Shown one piece after another: positions 12,480-52,700 of a stretch of DNA of 64,000 bases. The number at the start of each line of letters is the position of its first letter. Within the stretch, counting starts at the first letter, position 1. Below the pieces are notes generated by a model. That model had not been told where the DNA came from and ran no database searches. It saw only the letters and a program-made list of their open reading frames with translations. The stretch is from Ischnura elegans (lineage: Eukaryota; Arthropoda; Insecta; Odonata; Coenagrionidae), in assembly GCF_921293095.1 (NCBI RefSeq), contig NC_060247.1:110069111-110133110 (forward strand). The letters are read 5' to 3'. The position numbers were made by a program, and so were the translations under genes.

Positions 12480-15403
12480 CCTTTTGATTTAATGACGAAA
12501 TAATCACCTCTTACGAAGTCAGCTGCCCGTTAAGAACCAGGAAAGAGAGTGGTAATCCACCCTGGTGGGGAGCAGAGTTAGAAAGTCTCCGAAAGGAGAC
12601 AAGAAAACTCTTTAATAAAGCAAAGAGAACCAGGTTGCCGCAAGATTGGGAAACCTTTAAGGACACCCAACGTAGGTATAAATCAGCGATTAAAATCTCA
12701 AAAAAGAAGTCTTGGAGGCGCTTTTGCGAGAATGTGGAGTCAGTTCCACAACTCTCAAGATTTCATAAAATCATTGCAAAAGACCCGTGGGCCGGAGTAG
12801 GGTCTCTTTTGCTTCCTCCGGGAGAATATAAGTCTTCTGACAAGGAAGCATTAAAACTTCTGTTGGAGACTCACTTTCCAGGCTCCAAAGAGTCGGAGGA
12901 GATGCAAAAACGGAAGCCTCCCACCCGTCCGGCTTGGACGGACTGGAGATTGGCCTCCAGCATCGTTAAATATGATATAACAAGATGGGCTATAATTAGT
13001 TTTAGGCCTTACAAATCGGCCGGCGAAGATGGAATTTTCCCGGCACTTCTACAAGAGGGACAGGAGCTGGTATTACTCCCCATGGTAAGGATATTCCGCT
13101 CCTGTCTTGCATATGGGTATATCCCAAAGAAGTGGAGAGCTACCAAAGTTGTCTTTATCCCAAAACCAGGGAAGACGGACTACACTTTGGCCAGCTCATT
13201 TAGGGGCATTAGCTTAATGTCTTTCCTGCTGAAAACGCTGGAGAAGATAGTTGATAGATATATCAGAGATGGCCCCCTTAGGGACCATCCTCTGCATCCA
13301 CATCAGCACGCCTACCAGAAGGGCAAGTCTGTGGAAACTGCACTCCACAACCTAGTATGCAGGATAGAGAACGTACTGGAACATGGTTTGTATGGGTTTG
13401 GAGCGTTTCTAGATATAGAAGGAGCCTTCAACAATACATCCTTTGAACAAATCTGCCTGGAAGCAGACAGGCATGGAATCCATACACATATTGTGAGATG
13501 GATTAGATACATGCCTGAGCAAAGAACTGTTACCGCCCGCCTTGGAGGGAGCTCGCTGACGGTGACTGTGACAAGAGGGTGTCCACAGGGTGGGGTGCTG
13601 TCCCCATTACTATGGAATATGGTAGTCGATAGTCTGCTGTCAAACCTCCACAATACCGGTGTATTCACACAAGGATATGCTGATGATATCGTGATCTTGG
13701 TTTCAGGCAGATTCCTAGACACAGTATGTGAGCTTTTGCAGAAAGCCCTGGACAGAACAGCCCAGTGGTGTTCCGAAACAGGACTCTCTGTTAATCCAGA
13801 GAAGACCAATCTTGTTCTTTTCACTAAGAAAAGGAGGAGAGAGGGATTTACTTCCCCTTACCTCTTGGGAAAGAGACTAACACCGTCCTCATCGGTCAAA
13901 TATCTTGGAGTCGCTCTAGATTCCAAGCTCAACTGGAGAGAGCACATGGATAGCAAACTCAAAAAAGCATGTGCCTCATTATGGACATGTAGAAGAGGCC
14001 TTGGTAAATCATGGGGCCTTCAACCCAGAGCCATTAGCTGGCTATACAATGTAGTGGTGAAACCTAGTTTCCTCCACTGCTCAATTGTATGGTGGAAAAA
14101 GACCAAACAAATTACTGTTAGGAACAAGCTTAACCACCTACAAAGAATGGCCTGTATGGGCATTACAGGAGCAATGAGGACGACTCCAACCTTGGCGATG
14201 GAAACTCTGCTGAACCTTCCCTCACTTTATGTGGAAGTAGAGGTTCATGCAAGAGCCACGTTATACAGATTGAGAAATCTAGGTATGACAGAGGAAATTT
14301 CTCTGGACACAGACAACTGTGGACGGGACTGAGGGAGTCTGGCACAATTTTTGAGATGGGGTCGGATTCCATGATGGCGACGTTCAATTCTTCACCGCCT
14401 CTTTTTAAAACCCATTTCCCAAACAGGGAATGCTGGGCAAAAGAAGAGGGGAAAACCCTTCATAGTGGAGCCCAAGTGTGGTGCACCGATGGCTCCGTGA
14501 AAGAAGGGAAAGCAGGGGCAGGCGTCTACAGCCAATCCCCCCTAGGAGCATACATGTTCCCCTAGGAAGATATGCCACAGTGTTTCAGGCAGAAATCTTT
14601 GCCATCCTAACCTGTGTGCACGCCATTGAGGAGACAGGTCTCTACAAGAGACCAATCCATATATGCACCGACAGTCAGGCTGCTCTAAAAGCCCTGAACT
14701 CACCTTGGTGCAGATCTAAACTATTGGCTGAATGCTACAAGACTCTCAATATTTTGGGCAGCCGTTGTAAAATAGAACTTTTCTGGGTACCGGGACACTC
14801 AGGTATCACCGGAAACGAGAAGGCAGATGAACTGGCAAAGGCCGGCGCTGAACAGAATCCAATTGGCCCAGAACCAATTGTGCCAGTTGCCCCATCAATG
14901 GGGATGGCTGCAATCAAAGTGTGGGGATCAACCCAACACTTAAAGATCTGGCGAGAAACACCGGGTTTACGTCAGGCAAAAACCCTTATAGGAGAGGTAT
15001 CTCCTAGACTCGAGAGAAGACTTCTTCTTATGAACAGAAGTCAAGTGCGGACGGTGGTAGGTCTGCTTACGGGACACTATCACGTAATGAGACATATGCA
15101 CCTGCTGGGGATAACAGACTCAGATAGGTGTAGATGGTGTGAGATGGGAGAGGAAACAACCACTCATCTAATATGCGAGTGCCCCGCAATCATGAGGACT
15201 CCATATAGACACCTGGGCTCACCTTTTATAGAGCCCAAGGAAGTAAGAGATCTTCCGATTGGTAACCTTTTGCCCTTCGTCAAGGATATTGGCCTCTATG
15301 GGTGATCCATTATCGGTGGTTAGCACAATGGACCTACAGGTCTAAGTGCCCTGGGAGCTGATCCCCCACCGCATAAACTAATCTAATCTAATCTAACAGC
15401 CTC
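12480..15403 (+). mobile_element. LOA-like LINE (RT plus RNase H), 5'-truncated, broken
   Basis: This non-LTR element runs on the plus strand. The linker after the endonuclease (SCPLRTRKESGNPPWW) starts near 12507. The reverse transcriptase follows (12635-14332 open) with FLDIEGAFNN, GCPQGGVLSPLLW and GYADDIVILV, then RNase H with CTDGS, FQAEIFAIL, CTDSQAAL and NEKADELAKAG. The segments lie in three different frames (RT; RNase H start from 14356; RNase H remainder from 14478), so there are at least two frameshifts. The C-terminal zinc-knuckle-like part reads CRWCEMGEETTTHLICECP. The 3' end is a (TAATC)n run near 15380-15403, a tail type known from this group. The endonuclease is missing, so the copy is 5'-truncated; the left junction lies between about 12470 and 12505. 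LOA/R1-group placement is from motif style. Confidence 0.85.
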
Positions 15404-23804: not shown

Positions 23805-23809
23805 CGGCG

Positions 23810-25086
23810 CACAGTGGGCTGAAATCGAAAAAAGCTGGACAAAACCTCGAAAATGGTTTTTTTGAGTATGGAAGTTGAAACTTTGCACAGTTGTTGCCAA
23901 CACATTAGTGCATTTTTTGACGCAAAATGTTTTTCATAGGTTAATTTTTTTATATAAAATACATAGCCTCAAAGTTGAACAAATTTGGCGCAAATTGCCC
24001 GCTTTGAATTTTTTTCGAAATTCAGCATGTTTAAACTAATGTCACACCTTTAGTAATAAATAAATAGCAACAAAAATTCATAAAATTGTTAAACGGTTTG
24101 TTAGCATTGATTACCATCAACTTTTACTACTTAGTTGTCGTATTTGTGATCAATACGATACAAAATGGCGGACCCTGTTTTCGTCGAATTTTTGTGTTTA
24201 TGTAGGATTTTAAAAAAAGGATCACCGAGTTACCTCGAGATATTTACACCACATATACAGCAAAGTATGTAGATTATGATAACCGGAAAGACAGCTGCGA
24301 CCATCTGCGACGCCGAAATTAAGATCGATTTTTCGAACGTGCGGCTGCGCCCGGAGCTGGCTGCTGGCCACGGGAATTGCCGTACTCGACGGATGTTGGA
24401 TAGTGAATCATTTTAAGCAAATTTATTGTATAATAGCTATGATATATTATTACTACATTTATTTTCCTTTTGTTGTAACCTGATTTCTCTACTGTCTTGT
24501 AATATTTATCGTCGATGCAGTACAAAATGGCGGACACTAATTTCAGTAACATTTTTGCCCGTGTGTGGCTATATAAAAAGAAGGACCCCGAGTTGCTCTC
24601 AGATATTTACATCGTAATTGAATCAAGCCTTTTAGAGTCTCCATCCACAGAAATAATCTGTGACCGTTCGCAACAAACAAAATAAAATCGATGTTTCTAG
24701 TCACTAGTCAGTAAAAATGGATAGAGGAGCGAATTCATTTACCTAAAGTGACAACAAACCAACTTGAAATGAAATAGTAATAATTATGTTGGAATAAAAC
24801 ATATCCACAGCAAAGACTTCATAGCGCTTTATGATGTACGCTGCGTCACGACATTCAATGAGCCCATGGAGCATCCGCGGACTGCGCGGCACGGTAAAAA
24901 CATTTGCGCCAAATTTGTTCAACTTTGAGGCTATGTATTTTATATAAAAAATTAACCTATGAAAAATATTTTTCTTCAAAAAATGCACTAATGTGTTGGC
25001 AACAACTGAGAAAAGTTTCAACTTCCATACTAAAAAAAAACATTTTCGAGGTTTTGTCCAGCTTTTTTCGATTTCAGCCCACTGTG
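23810..25086. mobile_element. Non-autonomous Transib-like transposon with RSS-like ends
   Basis: A 1277-bp element has terminal inverted repeats of about 185 bp (23810-23995 and 24902-25086); the outer 45 bases are identical in both. Each end begins CACAGTG, followed 22 bases later by ACAAAACCT. It is flanked by identical 5-bp repeats CGGCG (23805-23809, 25087-25091). A CAC-type heptamer end and a 5-bp GC-rich CGNCG-type duplication are known hallmarks of the Transib superfamily, from which RAG1 is derived. The interior has two diverged direct repeats around ACAAAATGGCGGAC (near 24170 and 24525) and no transposase frame, so it would depend on a transposase elsewhere. Confidence 0.75.
24160..24615. 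repeat. Diverged internal direct repeat of the Transib-like element
   Basis: About 90 bases around 24160-24250 (ACAAAATGGCGGACCCTG to CTCGAGATATTTACA) recur at about 24520-24612 (ACAAAATGGCGGACACTA to CTCAGATATTTACAT), showing an old duplication inside the element. Confidence 0.55.
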
Positions 25087-25091
25087 CGGCG

Positions 25092-43004: not shown

Positions 43005-45350
43005 ATAATTGTTATTAACTAATGCCAAAGGTGGAAGGCAATTTTGGAAGAATATTAGCATTATCAGGGGTAAACAAGTCAATAAAAATAATGATGACAT
43101 GATAATAAAACACCTTTGTAAGGATAAAGACATTACTAGTGTATGTAATGAATTTGTATCTAATTATACACATGGCATAAATAATTTAAAAAGTAAATGT
43201 TCAAATAAGCTATGGAAGTCATATCCAGAGTCAATGATAAATAGTATGCATCTACCAGAACCTACCAATTCTGATATTGCTAATATTATTACAAAGTTAA
43301 AAAACAAGGCCTGTGGAGAAGATAAAATTAGAATTAAGGATATCAAAAGTCAAAAGGCTTTAATACCAGTCTTGACCGCTCTTGTAAAAAATAGTGTTAA
43401 TGAAGGTATTGTTCCACAAGGTATGAAATTAGCCTTAATTAGACCAATATATAAGGATGGCACTTTTACTGACATGAATAATTATAGACCTATATCAATC
43501 TTGTCATCTCTCAGCAAAGTCCTTGAAAAATATGTAGCTGCTCATTTAACTAACTATGTATCTAAATACAGACTTATAAATAAAAATCAATATGGTTTTC
43601 AGAAATGTAAGGGTACAAGAGGAGCTCTTGAAACTTTTGCTGACATTGTGAACTCTTGTCTAAACAAGAACAAGTATGTAATTGTTTCTTTCATAGACTA
43701 CAAAAAAGCATTTGATACTGTAAACCATGAGATACTATTACAGGATCTCCAACAATTTGGAATAAGAGGAAATGTCTTAGATTGGTTTAAGAGTTATCTG
43801 TCAAATAGAAAAGTAGCAGTCAGGATTAATAATGTTCAGAGTAATTTCATGATTACTCAGTATGGAGTACCTCAGGGATCAGTACTGGGACCTATATTGT
43901 TTAACATTTATGTGAATGGAATATTTAAAGCAATTAAGTACGGTAAAATTCTACTTTATGCAGATGATGTGGTTATAATTACAAACCATAAAGATTACAC
44001 TCAAGCAGTAAATTACATGCAAGAAGATCTGCAAAACATAGCTGCATGGTCTCACGATCACGACCTAACAATAAATCCTAACAAAACAAAAGTTATGCAA
44101 ATTACTAATGTAGGATTTAAGATTACTCCCATTATACTCTATATGCATGACCACAAATGTCTACATAAAAAGGGCCTTTCTAGCACTTGTAACTGCACTC
44201 CTCTGGAACAGGTTACACATTACAAATACTTAGGTATAACCATTGATCAGTATTTGAAATTTGATAGACACATAGTTAAAATGAACAGTAAACTAAGTAA
44301 CATTAATTATCAGATGTATCAAATTAATACCCTAGTTCCAAAGAAAACAAAGATTATAATATATCACGCACTGGTTGAATCAATACTACGCTACGGAATT
44401 ACCATTTGGGGAAGTACTGCCCAATACTATCAGGACACTCTGTTAAAAACTCAAAAAAAAATACTCAAATTAATTCACGCAGGGATTGAATCAACAACAA
44501 ACCATAAAAATGCAGGTATTTCCCTCAAGGGTTCTCCTGATCATAATAAATCTTTGTATGAAGAACTCGGTATACTAAAGGTTACTGACCTTTACATTTA
44601 TGTGTTAGTAATTAATAATTATTTCAACAATACATTAAAGATTCACAAAGATTACAAACACTCCATGGAAATGAGAAATCTTACTCATTACTATGTACCG
44701 AAATATAATAACAACTATGGTAAAGGTGTAATGAATATTAAAATCCCAATGGCAATAAACGAGTTACCAGATAACTTGAAGAGAATAAAAACTATTAGGG
44801 AATTAAAAAGTAAACTAAAAAAGCACCTACTGGAGAGATCGTAAAACGGTTGTCTTATTATTTCTTAGATATGTTTTTGAGTGTCATAATGTAATACTCT
44901 ATGTGGCTAGGGGGTATATGTATATTGTCTATGTGTTAACACTTAATAAATGTTTTGTAAAAGTAAAGATAATAATGGAACCTGCTGATAAGCTTAATGC
45001 TTAGCGGGACCATTAAAATGCAAATAATGTAGTTTTCATTCAAATGTCAATATTTAAAGAACCTGAATGTTTTATTGGAATATATACTTAATTGAATTGA
45101 ATTATATAATGACAATATCTTTTTTTTTAGATAATATTTTATATATTGTAACTTTTTTAAAATTTTGTAATATGTTAAGCAATATGACTACTTATTTGAA
45201 TGGCTATTAACGAATGGTTAATATTTTATAGGTATGGAACTATTGTATGAAAATATTTTTAACTATCAAATGTATTATTGTAAACAATTTTTTTATCCTG
45301 TAACAATAAATATTTACAATATTAAAATATAAAAAAAAAAAAAAAAAAAA
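43005..45350 (+). mobile_element. CR1/Jockey-group LINE, 5'-truncated, with poly(A) tail
   Basis: A 5'-truncated non-LTR element with an open reverse transcriptase of about 611 codons (43009-44844), a 3' untranslated region of about 490 bases and a poly(A) run at about 45332-45350. RT motifs: RPISILSSLSKVLE, NQYGFQKCKGTRGA, VSFIDYKKAFDTVNH, YGVPQGSVLGPILFN and LLYADDVVIIT. The intact frame suggests a recent insertion. No endonuclease is present. A clear target duplication was not found. Clade is judged by motif style; Kiri, Crack or Daphne relatives are possible. Confidence 0.85.
43009..44844 (+). CDS. LINE reverse transcriptase (5'-truncated ORF2)
   Basis: An uninterrupted frame of about 611 codons. 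It starts only because a TAA precedes TTGTTATTAACTAATGCC, so the listed start is the truncation point, not a real initiation site. RT fingers and palm are complete, including the YADD catalytic box at about 43957-43968 and the FIDYKKAFD motif. The thumb and C-terminal part follow, with a cysteine/histidine patch (HDHKCLHKKGLSSTCNC) and a stop at 44842-44844. Confidence 0.8.
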   Translation: MLLTNAKGGRQFWKNISIIRGKQVNKNNDDMIIKHLCKDKDITSVCNEFVSNYTHGINNLKSKCSNKLWKSYPESMINSMHLPEPTNSDIANIITKLKNKACGEDKIRIKDIKSQKALIPVLTALVKNSVNEGIVPQGMKLALIRPIYKDGTFTDMNNYRPISILSSLSKVLEKYVAAHLTNYVSKYRLINKNQYGFQKCKGTRGALETFADIVNSCLNKNKYVIVSFIDYKKAFDTVNHEILLQDLQQFGIRGNVLDWFKSYLSNRKVAVRINNVQSNFMITQYGVPQGSVLGPILFNIYVNGIFKAIKYGKILLYADDVVIITNHKDYTQAVNYMQEDLQNIAAWSHDHDLTINPNKTKVMQITNVGFKITPIILYMHDHKCLHKKGLSSTCNCTPLEQVTHYKYLGITIDQYLKFDRHIVKMNSKLSNINYQMYQINTLVPKKTKIIIYHALVESILRYGITIWGSTAQYYQDTLLKTQKKILKLIHAGIESTTNHKNAGISLKGSPDHNKSLYEELGILKVTDLYIYVLVINNYFNNTLKIHKDYKHSMEMRNLTHYYVPKYNNNYGKGVMNIKIPMAINELPDNLKRIKTIRELKSKLKKHLLERS

Positions 45351-46730: not shown

Positions 46731-49700
46731 TTATGGAAGGTATTTCGAACATATAGTTTCCTTTGGCCATCTGGCTTTGAGCGTCTTCGCTGCATTCTTC
46801 ATTACCTCCGAGCACATCTCTCCCATTTCTTCAGCGCATCCCAGAAAATCAAATATATACCTGGAATGATAAATTGCAGCCAAGGTCAGTTAAGGAACGT
46901 TGAAATTGTGCAATGCCTCGTTCAATAGTAAATTTATGAGCGTAAAAAACCCCTCTGGACGTTTATTCTGGTCCTCTCGTCGCTAAGGCCTAGGTACTTA
47001 GGTCGTTTAGCTTCCGCTGAAATAAGCCAGCTGCATAATGATAATGCAGCAATGGAAGCGAAACTGGAACGAAATCATATGATTTCTTCCCCAATCGGAG
47101 TTCGCGTACACAAAATTTTGTATGCAGCAGAGAAAAGTTTTTTTTTTATAAAATTCAAAGTTTAAAAGAATTTATACCTCGTGAATTCGAAAAGCATACT
47201 CAAAATATCGTATCACTCGCAGCTATGGTGAATATCATACACTCCGCCAACATCGATTGCACATATGTAGGTAAACAGCACCTATATGGTAAGTGAATTA
47301 TGTTGAAGTAGAATTTAAAATTAAATAAACAGCATATTGAAGTTGCATGCAGCAAACAGATGCACGTGTGCATAGGGAATACTTTATGCCATATATTAAC
47401 TTAAATTTTTTACATTGTGTTTTTTTTGCTGTTATGACATGGATCCTTCTTTTCCCCTTATGAGGCATATCTGTTTGCTCATACAGCAGCATTCGTTAAT
47501 CATTAGAACATGCCAATTTTTCTTGTGTCGTCGTTCCATTCCTTGATATTCTGATGGAAACCTTTTTTGGATAGAGTTTTTCTACACTTGCCGTTTTAAG
47601 TATGCATAAAAAATTCCCACAGAATTTACGTTAAAGGGCATACATTAAATACGTATGTATTTTACGCAAATTATGTGGGTGATACGATTTTTTAGTATCC
47701 CTTTAATTCCGGAGGTCAAAATAAACTCCGAACTACTTTTCGGCAACTAATAATATGTGATACTTACAGCAGACAGCTGCAAAGCTGGGAACTCTAGTTT
47801 GAAAACAAAAATATGATATTTTAGCGTAGCGTAACACTTTCGAAAGAGGCTTGCATGACCTGGCAATGACGTTTAACCAGAATAAACATCCAGGTTTATC
47901 AATTTACTCCATTATCAGACATACTTACTGGCATATGCTCGCTTTGGTGAAGCGGTCATCCCTCGGATCAGGAAACTCGCAAATTAGTGATTCCTCGACG
48001 ACTTCCACTCCGCCAAGACGGGATTGGCACTTCTGGCTTTTCAGTGTTCTTTCCATACATTCCACTTGATCTTCTCCGATGAATGCTAAGCATGGAAAAT
48101 TTTCAGAATGAGAAATACAGAACTTAACATTAGATGTGATATGAAACGAACTGCCCTTCTTCCTACAAGGCGCAGCCATTCCATGTCATTAATTTAATAA
48201 GAAGGAATACTCAAAATTACTCCTGAATATGAGGGTCTGAGTTCTACGGCATTGAATACAAAAGGTATGGTCACCCCCTGCCAAACACCCTAGAGGTGGC
48301 ACCAAGGTATTGTGTCAATGTAAAATGAAATGCCCCACAAGCCGTAACGTGTTACGCTCGTCTGTTTTGCCCCGACCTGGGTTTTACAGCACTGGTTTAG
48401 GGGTATGAAGCAAATGACCGCTGGGATCGAACACAGCCTCTCAACCGGCATTATAAGTAGTTAGAATAATTTAATCTTGCATTATATGGATTATCGATAT
48501 AATCAAAATAAATCCGTATACATTTGATCAGGAGTTTTGAAACTGGATACATTCGTTTAATAAGTTTTCGTTCGTAAGTGGCTATCAAGATACTGAGTAA
48601 GCCAGTAGATACATTAATTATCCAAGTGTACTTGCCAACATCAGATGCAGAAGAAGAAGAGATTGAACGGATATATGAGCAAATAGAGGAAGTATATGAA
48701 GAAAATGGAAAAGGCAAAGTAAGAACTATAATGATGGGAGATTGGAACAGTGTAGTGGGGAATGGAAGAAGGACGAATGTAGTTGGAGATTATGGTCTTG
48801 GAAGTAGAAATGAAAGAGGAGAAAAATTGATAAATTTTTGTGAGCGCTTGGAGTTATGGATTGCAAATACTTGGTTTAAAAATCATAAAAGAAGGTTGTA
48901 CACGTGGAAAGCACCTGGAGATATTTCAAGATATCAGATAGATTTTATTATTGTCAATCAAAGGTTTAAGAATAGTGTTAAAATGGCAAAAACCTACCCA
49001 GGAGCAGATGCTGACTCTGACCACAATCTTCTAGTTACTGATATAAGAACACGATTGAAGCTTGTTAAGAAAGGGAGGTTGATAAGGAAATGGGATGTAA
49101 TAAAGCTGAAAAATGAGAAGAATGAAGCATATAATAAAAATGTTGAGAAAAAATTGGAAGATGTAAGACAAAGTAATGAGGTATCAGAGGAATGGAATAA
49201 CATTAGGGATGTAATATGGGAAGTCTTAGAAGAGGAAGTTGGTGTTGTACAAAAGGAAAGAAATAGGAAGGAATGGATCACTCAGAGCATGATAGATAAA
49301 ATGGAGGAAAGGAGAAAGTGGAAAAATGTTCACACTGAAGAAGGAAAAGGGCAATATAGGAAACTTAACAATGAACTACGAAGATTAACTGATAAGGCAA
49401 GAGAGGAGTGGATGGAGAGAGAATGCGAAAAGATGGAAGTCCTAGAAGAACAAGGGAGATTGGAAGAAATGTATAAAACAGCTAAAAAGTTCACAAAAAG
49501 AGAGCCAAAGAAAATAAGTAAACAAGGAATGTTAAATAAATACGGAAAGATAACAACAGGTGTTGAGGAAAACAAAAACATATGGAAAGAATATGTGAAA
49601 GTACTATATGATAGTAAAGATGATCATTCTGAGATGGAGCTGGAAGAGGAATGGGAATGTGAAGAGGTGAATAGAGGACCAAACATACTGAGAAGAGAAG

Positions 49701-52700
49701 TGGAAAAGGCAATCAAGGATCTCAAGGAAAGGAAAGCAATGGGATGCGATAGAATACCATCAGAAGCATTAAAGAACCTAGGTAACAGTGCAATGAGTCG
49801 ACTAACAAATTTAATCAATAGGATATATGATACCGGGAGCTGGCCTGATGATCTACTTAAAACTATTCTAATACCAATACCAAAGAAATGTAATGCCAAA
49901 GAATGTAAAGACTATAGGACAATTAGTCTTATATGCCATGTTACCAAAGTAATTACAAGGATTATATTAAAAATAATCGAAGGAAGAATTAAAGAAAATA
50001 TGGGAGAAGATCAATTTGGATTTAGGAAGGGTAAAGGGACTCGTGATGCAATAGGATGCTTGAGGATGATAGGAGAAAGAATGATGGAAGTGAATAGAGA
50101 TTTGTACATTTGCTTTATTGATTGGGAAAAGGCATTTGATAAGGTTAATTGGAATGTGTTATTGAAAATTTTGAAAGACATTGGCATTGATTGGAAAGAT
50201 AGAAGATTAATAAAGGAGATGTATTGTAGGCAGGTAGTAGTTATAAAAATTGGAGATGATGAAACAAAAGAAATTGGCATAGGAAGAGGAGTGAGGCAAG
50301 GGTGCTGCCTTTCTCCAGAGCTCTTCAATGTTTATGCAGAAAAAATGATGGAGAAAGCTTTAGAAAAAGCTAGAGGAGTTATAATAGGAGGAGAAAGAAT
50401 AAAAACAATTAAATATGCAGATGATCAGGCAGTGCTGGCAGAAAGTGAAGAAGATTTACAACAAGTGATGGATGATATAATGGATGTGGGGAGGGAATTT
50501 GGAATGAACTTAAACATAAATAAAACCAAGGTGATGAGAATCAGCAGAAAAGAAGGTTGTGTTTGTATATCCTTAGAAGGAAATATCATACAGCAAGTAC
50601 AGACTTTCCAATATTTGGGAAGTCTGGTAAGATGGAATGGAAGTTGTACTGAGGAAATAAGAAGAAGGATATCAATAGGTAAAGGAGCGTATGGAAAGGT
50701 AAAAGCATTGTTAACAGCAAAAAGAATTCCAATAGAGATGAGGAAGAGGTTTATGAAATGTTTTGTGTGGAGTGTAGTGTTGTACGGATGTGAATCATGG
50801 ACTGTTAAAAAGAAGGAGGAGAGATATTTAGAAAGTTTTGAAATGTGGGTATGGAGACGAATGTTGAAAGTGAAGTGGACTGACAGAGTGAAGAATGAGG
50901 AAGTTCTAAGAAGAATAGGCGAGGAAAGAAAATTAATACATATGATTCATAAGAGGAAGGCAAGTTGGTTAGGGCATATATTAAGAAGGAATTGTTTGGA
51001 ACGGAGAATAATAGAAGGGAAGATAGAAGGAAAGAGAGGAAGAGGAAGAAGGAGGATGGGAATGTTGGATGATATAAGAAGAGGAAGAAAATACAAAGAC
51101 CTAAAGGAGGATGCTCAGGATAGAGAAAGATGGAGAGAAGTCCAGTGGAAACCTGTCTAAGGACAGTAATCACTGATGATGATGATGATGACATTCGTTT
51201 GCTTATCGAAATTAAGAAGTTCCTAAGCAGTCCACCCTTAATAATACCTCAATAGAACGGATTACACTACCAAATATTACGTTTTATTTATTATCTAACG
51301 AGAGTAATACAGGCTATCACCGAGTTTTACCCTTGAGCAACAAATAATTAAGTCCCTAGAGCCGTTTGAATCTTCAAATCGAATTTTGTGCCAAATTTTT
51401 TTCCGCGATTTTTAATTTTCAATGATATTTATAATGAAATGCTCTTTAAGCAGTTGTAGCGCACGCCCGTATTCGTCGACCAGGGTTTTACTGTATTCGT
51501 TTGCGGGGATGGAGAAAGTGATCGCAGAGACCAAATAGAGCCTTTCAACCAGCAAACGCTGACGCTCAGTCATGCAGGCTAAAAATGAATTAACCAAAAA
51601 GAGCAGAACAAGATGTAAATTTGGATATGTGACGTGTGTTTTCATCGGGGACTCTTAATTTTATATGGCTAGTATTACTGTTTTGAATTTCGGTCGTTAA
51701 ATTATATTACTTGCAATAATCCTGTAATTTTATCCTCTGTAAAGTCGGCATTAAAGATTACATTTATTCTAATACGCATCGCGGAATGGACCCTCTCCTA
51801 GCGCGAGATCAGTTTCTATTCTCTGGTTATGATACGTATTCGTACGATACGCAATTAGTGCTGAAAATATAATTATTACATATAGTGCGCATTACATCAA
51901 AAAATTCATTAAGGAGTAAACTTCGATAGAAATAATCCTTACCACTGAGTATTTGGCTGTTGTTTTCGCAAAGTATGGCTATAGATTCTACGATCATGCC
52001 TGTTGCGAACGGAACCATTAACTGCGACTTATTCGTGAATGTCTGTACCATATCCGCAGTATCTCTGATGCAACCGATGATCGATTCCTTTTTCCTGAAA
52101 AAAAGATGGAGTGATGATAATAATTATCGCATTCAAAGAGTCATGAAGTCAATTTTTTACTCTCTGCAAAAAACCTTTGATGATGATTGTGGTGATGTTT
52201 CAAAAACAATTTTCTCCCATTAAAGTGATGGATATGATTCTTTAACTTGCATTTACTATGCTCATTCACCTGTCCTTGAACGATATTTTCCGTTAGACTC
52301 CCGTGTCCATAAGGTAATCGAGGGAATTATTCCATATTCTATTCAAGGTTTTTAAAACTTTTCTTCTCTCCCACCTTTCTTAAAACTTCCTCATCATTCA
52401 CACCATCTATCCATTTGATCGTCATCACTCTTCCATAGCACCACATTTCGGAAGCATCCAACCTTCTATTCTTCGCTGCTGTAATTGCCCGTGCTACAAT
52501 AAAGAAGCCCCACTACCATTAAGATGCATGCCCCAAATGTATGTCCTAATCAACTGCATCCTACCTTCAACCCTTAAATATCCAACCGTAAGACTCCTTC
52601 CTCTTTTTGAGAAATTACCTCTTTGTTTGGGCTATTTAACTGACCATCATAGGTCACCTGACTGAACAAGGTGTAGAACTCCTTCATGTCTTCATGCTTA

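Follow-up and report, generated by a model that had tools for sequence, protein, structure and literature searches.

An asparagine at the second catalytic position in a Transib family from a damselfly, Ischnura elegans, and a non-autonomous copy on chromosome 2

The window analysed here, a stretch of 64,000 nucleotides from chromosome 2 of the damselfly Ischnura elegans (110,069,111-110,133,110), contains an ordinary non-autonomous copy of Transib, a common cut-and-paste type of transposon, and what deserves notice is the family to which it belongs, in which the second catalytic position of the transposase is occupied by asparagine. The copy is almost certainly a deletion derivative mobilised in trans, its ends bound by a Transib transposase, cut at the CAC border and joined to a CGGCG site with a stagger of 5 bp. 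Likeness of the ends to the recombination signal sequences (RSS) of V(D)J recombination is by itself expected for Transib, whereas asparagine at a residue of the DDE motif is not. This asparagine occurs in 71 of the 82 places that matched a codon pattern in this single genome, at a residue reported to belong to the DDE motif of both HzTransib and RAG1 (PMC6941560).

The element in the window is 1277 bp long (23810-25086, forward strand) and carries CACAGTG at each terminus (23810-23816 on the forward strand and 25080-25086 on the reverse strand). It is flanked by an exact duplication of the target site CGGCG, the left copy of which lies at 23805-23809 and the right copy at 25087-25091. At each of the two ends, a spacer of 22 bp separates the heptamer from the nonamer-like block ACAAAACCT, which agrees with ACAAAAACC at 7/9 positions; the block of the 5' end is located at 23839-23847 on the forward strand and that of the 3' end at 25049-25057 on the reverse strand. 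The length, the heptamers, the block after 22 bp and the exact duplication had all been described in a previous sequence-only reading and were confirmed, as was the identity of the two ends, which extends over the first 46 bases and not the 45 given there. Comparison with the full-length element L068 showed that the left arm (23810-24699, forward strand) corresponds to its positions 1-890 with 94.7% identity, that a segment in inverse orientation (24698-24903, reverse strand) matches its positions 882-1086 with 93.2% identity, and that the right arm (24902-25086, forward strand) corresponds to its final 185 bp with 93.5% identity. The two arms of the window copy are 95.7% identical over 186 aligned columns, and the transposase gene of the full-length copies is missing. 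Such a copy may have been formed through deletion or through fold-back in repair. Elsewhere in the window, long open frames are found on the forward strand (12635-14332, 14478-15305, 43009-44844 and 48578-51160) and on the reverse strand (421-1128), which, judged by eye, resemble non-LTR retrotransposon proteins (reverse transcriptase, RNase H and endonuclease).

The genome searched (Ischnura elegans ioIscEleg1.1; 1,722,721,009 bases in 110 contigs) is that of a damselfly, in agreement with the arthropod host proposed earlier, and contains 1941 ends (990 + 951) matching the 38-bp terminus with at most three mismatches, with 0 matches for a reversed-pattern control. A search for the telomere repeat TTAGG as an arthropod mark yielded two overlapping matches and was uninformative on this point. 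Chromosome 1 carries 53 exact ends, which can be paired into 18 elements of 1253-5324 bp and include 17 without a partner. An exact 5-bp duplication was present in 23 of the 25 elements with both ends among the loci examined (mean for shuffled partners, 3.2), the exceptions being L010 and L034. Fourteen of these 23 duplications read exactly CGNCG and the rest are mostly one base off, with C at position 1 in 21, G at position 2 in 20, C at position 4 in 21 and G at position 5 in 19. Four full-length relatives (L067-L070; 5324-5351 bp), chosen because both transposase halves matched there, have the same ends and 5-bp duplications, and their inverted repeats are 98.6-98.9% identical over 999 aligned columns. 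Another place, C1:117783888, has a transposase middle part that is closely related. The assignment to Transib made in the sequence-only reading is therefore upheld, since the ends, the CGNCG-like 5-bp duplications of the other copies and the Transib transposase encoded by full-length relatives with the same ends, as judged from the L068 exons that match HzTransib, all agree. The length of the duplications is the same as that stated for Transib in published work. Other insect Transib MITEs (iMITEdb, PMC5199201) are likewise non-autonomous, with Transib-type ends and duplications; their mean length is about 482 bp, whereas the incomplete I. elegans elements examined measure 1.3-4.5 kb.

Inverted repeats of 968-1008 aligned columns, 97.4-99.7% identical, were found in all 17 elements of 3.9-5.4 kb, and those of L067 extend for 968 bp without any difference. 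A literature search on long inverted repeats in Transib found no paper, which does not make a length of about 1 kb unusual. The arms inside L022, L067 and other elements are nearly identical to each other and often equally distant from the family majority, which suggests that the arms of one element convert each other. As a separate observation, L010 (C16) and L025 (C3) differ in size, but 198 bases of their 5' flanks resemble each other at 84%, while their 3' flanks are unmatched, as if an older repeat had received both at one position.

The antibody-gene recombinase of humans descends from the Transib group, and the heptamer CACAGTG of the family is identical to that of the RSS of jawed vertebrates. 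In other respects the family differs from these signals: the 12/23 asymmetry is absent, the spacer is conserved, and the nonamer reaches 7/9 at a spacer of 22 bp only, with 4/9 at both 23 bp and 12 bp. The layout of a functional V(D)J signal, with a spacer of 12 or 23 bp between heptamer and nonamer, is not that of the element's ends. Dinucleotide shuffles reach 7/9 in 1.5% of cases at a spacer of 22 bp, 3.4% at 22-24 bp, 5.2% at 20-24 bp and 6.7% at either 11-13 or 22-24 bp. Perfect matches to CACAGTG-N22/23-ACAAAAACC number 5 in the genome and 1 for a reversed control, and a family with perfect RSS was not seen in it. In 79 ends collected with a seed inside the element (positions 61-260) and not by their termini, the mean majority frequency was 0.989 in the heptamer, 0.994 in the spacer and 0.997 in the nonamer-like block, and further in it was 0.987 at positions 39-60 and 0.971 at positions 61-180. 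The family terminus is a single continuous conserved end rather than two blocks. The proposal that the ends are unusually close to the vertebrate signal was not supported, because symmetric spacers of 20-22 bp and nonamer-like blocks have been published for Transib ends (PMC8355894) and because the spacer is conserved like the blocks, unlike in true RSS. The same source describes certain Transib heptamers and nonamers as equal to the canonical ones. Compared by description, the Drosophila and Anopheles Transib elements named in it have a heptamer and an A-rich nonamer-like block, as here, and differ in their 12/23 asymmetry from the symmetric I. elegans family; for Transib ends other than these, the same source gives symmetric spacers of the 20-22 bp type. 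The earlier proposal gains something from the 7/9 nonamer, which exceeds the little or no nonamer likeness stated for HzTransib ends in PMC8289069. The likeness to RSS is real, yet it was already known for the Transib superfamily.

The conservation of the termini also affects how the age of the window copy is read. In a comparison of 44 ends, which omits L034 and, for elements no longer than 2 kb, the right arm, and is biased in that elements were picked by their ends (the 79 seed-found ends show the same trend), 9 of 1980 sites in the terminal 45 bp differed from the family majority (0.45%), against 1050 of 36254 sites at positions 46-870 (2.9%), or 804 of 35461 (2.3%) when the outlier end L030_5 is left aside. 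Since the terminal 45 bp differ less than the positions that follow, the identity of the first 45 bases is due to constraint or to selection by transposition and is not a clock. The left arm of the window copy departs from the majority at 22 of 824 sites, the other copies, outlier aside, doing so at 11-23 of about 825, and its two arms are less alike than those of 23 of the 24 other elements. Recent activity, previously deduced from the identical ends, is plausible for the family, in which the arms of L022 agree at 921 of 921 positions, but the arms of the window copy, at 95.7%, do not establish it there. Identical ends do not mark that copy as recent, because the termini are conserved family-wide and its left arm has diverged from the full-length relative to the identity given above.

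The four full-length relatives share an intron-split gene, whose frames break at the same peptides in 4/4 copies. Introns 1-3 of L068 have GT-AG borders, and the gene is probably spliced at these breaks, with a first exon and start codon that are uncertain. In L068, the exons are read without stop or frameshift, whereas L067 and L069 have one frameshift each and L070 has stops and a frameshift. The exon pieces of L068 match HzTransib (6pqn) with E values of 1.7e-30, 1.6e-08, 1.9e-11 and 7.4e-38, the first and last of which belong to its two longest exons. HzTransib (PDB 6pqn, 6pqr, 6pqu, 6pqx, 6pqy, 6pr5) is a homologous transposase in every exon piece searched, and its first Asp, final Glu and C(2)C motif are also present in the I. 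elegans family. In the frames of the full-length relatives, CFVC represents the C(2)C motif and HKVLIH the H-x4-H motif. At the start of exon 2 there is a GRP motif of the kind reported in the nonamer-binding domain of RAG1 and Transib, and so shared with the RAG1 core (PMC9435367). A Pfam search with three frames returned no family, and scans of prokaryote and viral contigs found no relatives, so that the comparison outside the host is with solved structures alone. An AlphaFold2 model covering most of exon 2 reached a mean pLDDT of 36.

The catalytic triad of HzTransib consists of D126, D225 and E436 (PMC6941560), and in the 6pqn chain the peptides WGFDG, MIDGK and SEARNK place it at 109, 208 and 419, with a constant offset of 17. 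A gapless alignment pairs TMVNGK of the family with TMIDGK of HzTransib, by which the second Asp is replaced by Asn. The first Asp and the Glu are kept, and the intact DDE triad is absent; membership in Transib is claimed from the homologous transposase, the termini and the target duplication, the triad being a variant one. The position of D225 is Asn in 25/25 family places, all with the codon AAT, as found with a pattern that allowed either codon and up to three mismatches. Judged from how far it lies from the C(2)C motif, D708 of RAG1 is the same residue. Thirteen more distant Transib pieces, selected by hand among the transposase protein matches, comprise 11 with Asn, from two sequence groups and with AAC and AAT codons, and 2 with Asp (L079 and L082). 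Genome-wide, a strict codon pattern, which consists of the motif and a GTRAG splice donor and leaves other donors or neighbouring residues uncounted, identified 71 places with Asn and 11 with Asp (controls, 0 and 0), both sets being related copies and not independent events. Of these, 49 Asn and 9 Asp places were linked to protein matches among the 78 (of 150) used for this comparison, and their identity to L068 ranges from 41 to 100% for Asn places and from 51 to 54% for Asp places. Asparagine at the second catalytic site of a Transib element was not reported in the open literature searched, as far as its text was available, subscription papers and Repbase lying outside that search.

Beyond what was observed (termini, target duplications, number of copies, layout of the deletion, full-length relatives and the homology of their gene), the movement of the element would have required a Transib transposase acting in trans on both of its ends. 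By analogy with HzTransib biochemistry, this enzyme would cut at the CAC border, leaving a hairpin on the flanking DNA and a blunt transposon end (PMC6941560), after which the element would be joined with a 5-bp stagger into the CGGCG site. Because Asn replaces the second catalytic Asp in the full-length relatives, we infer that the family most likely, at about an even chance, owes its movement to a Transib transposase that is encoded in the same genome and bears the aspartate. Candidate drivers are the aspartate-bearing relatives at 11 places, two of which (L079 and L082) were read in sequence. None of these aspartate-bearing elements was found to carry the ends of the window family: around the two Asp sites of chromosome 1, for which the listings of exact ends are complete, no listed end of the window type or of a related type was found within 2 Mb. 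This related pattern has 946 exact places, and many of those listed are paired at about 3.0 kb. One such end, C1:114317029, sits 1.6 kb from the coding piece C1:114318608, which is 39% identical to L068, and suggests that similar ends are common to other Transibs. If the Asp-bearing elements had ends of the CACAGTGG....AAATCGAAAAAAGCTGG type, the driver would be named. A Transib end of this related kind, CACAGTGGTCCCAAATCGAAAAAAGCTGGCC, occurs at L028:4668; it differs from the window type and retains the spacer sequence AAATCGAAAAAAGCTGG.

Compatible with an aspartate-bearing driver, and plausible at somewhat less than an even chance, is the explanation that all Asn families are defective passengers, in which the change had a single origin or a small number of them, the open frames being functionless remnants. 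Three of the four full-length copies read contain stops or frameshifts. In addition, L009:1323-2180 and 30 further deletion copies join the N-terminal part of the transposase in frame to its C-terminal part. The fused frame, 285 codons long, has neither the second catalytic residue nor the C(2)C motif and changes as if neutral. Across these 31 copies, most of which were found through protein similarity so that intact frames are favoured, the 254 single changes comprise 182 nonsynonymous, 56 synonymous and 16 stop changes, and the 159 shared changes comprise 111, 44 and 4, respectively, for a neutral expectation of 71%, 25% and 4%. A role of the fused frame as a maintained repressor was rejected on account of these neutral-looking substitutions. 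However, protein identity to L068 is still 54-60% in pieces from the other Asn groups, and several of these pieces have open frames, which argues for coding constraint after the Asn groups split, unless Asn arose separately in each group. Should the Asn enzyme be dead, many passengers together with few possible drivers would provide a clean system of trans-mobilisation.

A less likely explanation, and in our estimation an unlikely one, is that the family was moved by its own Asn enzyme, edited or not, either because an Asp-Asn-Glu site is tolerated or because A-to-I editing converts AAY to GAY (Asp) in the mRNA. The 71 places with Asn against 11 with Asp, its presence in two further sequence groups that are 54-60% identical to L068 in the pieces compared and use both AAT and AAC, the retention by the window family of the first and third catalytic residues and of both the C(2)C and the H-x4-H motif, and the uninterrupted exons of one full-length copy, L068, are consistent with an active enzyme. 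The codon is also followed, after two further codons, by a GT resembling a 5' splice site in 13 of the 13 pieces read; the 71 and 11 places presuppose this GT and do not test its position. On the other hand, the 71 places are copies related to one another, the RNA at the site folds no better than shuffled sequence does (z +1.26), leaving no local structure as an editing signal, and the Asn enzyme should be inactive, because D225 was placed within the HzTransib DDE motif by homology-guided mutational analysis and the corresponding RAG1 residues are reported to bind metal ions essential for activity (PMC6941560). The more specific proposal that a damselfly Transib clade might use an Asp-Asn-Glu site, or might edit AAY beside the splice site and so need host editing, is improbable. 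If the Asn enzyme does work or is edited, it would bear on metal binding by RAG-type recombinases and on the ways in which a host might gate transposase activity.

The CACAGTG heptamer and nonamer-like block might suggest that a RAG1-RAG2-like (RAGL) transposon, and not Transib, bears these ends as V(D)J-like signals; this is extremely improbable, given that HzTransib is the best solved relative of each piece with no RAG1 entry at the thresholds used, that the sole other match below 1e-3 is a designed protein (7ona) with no stretch passing alone, that L067 has no frame longer than 119 aa outside the transposase exons, and that the duplication is CGNCG-like. A RAG2 profile search of the genome gave no match, and its controls were equally silent.

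Many chromosomes carry Transib pieces of equal score, and these often lie no more than about 4 Mb from the end of a contig, for example at C5:1479238, C7:401300, C8:116434549, C19:121475750, C3:138821269 and C6:125448601; one at C5:106345782 lies away from a contig end. The distribution looks as if these pieces were carried by shared subtelomeric duplications.
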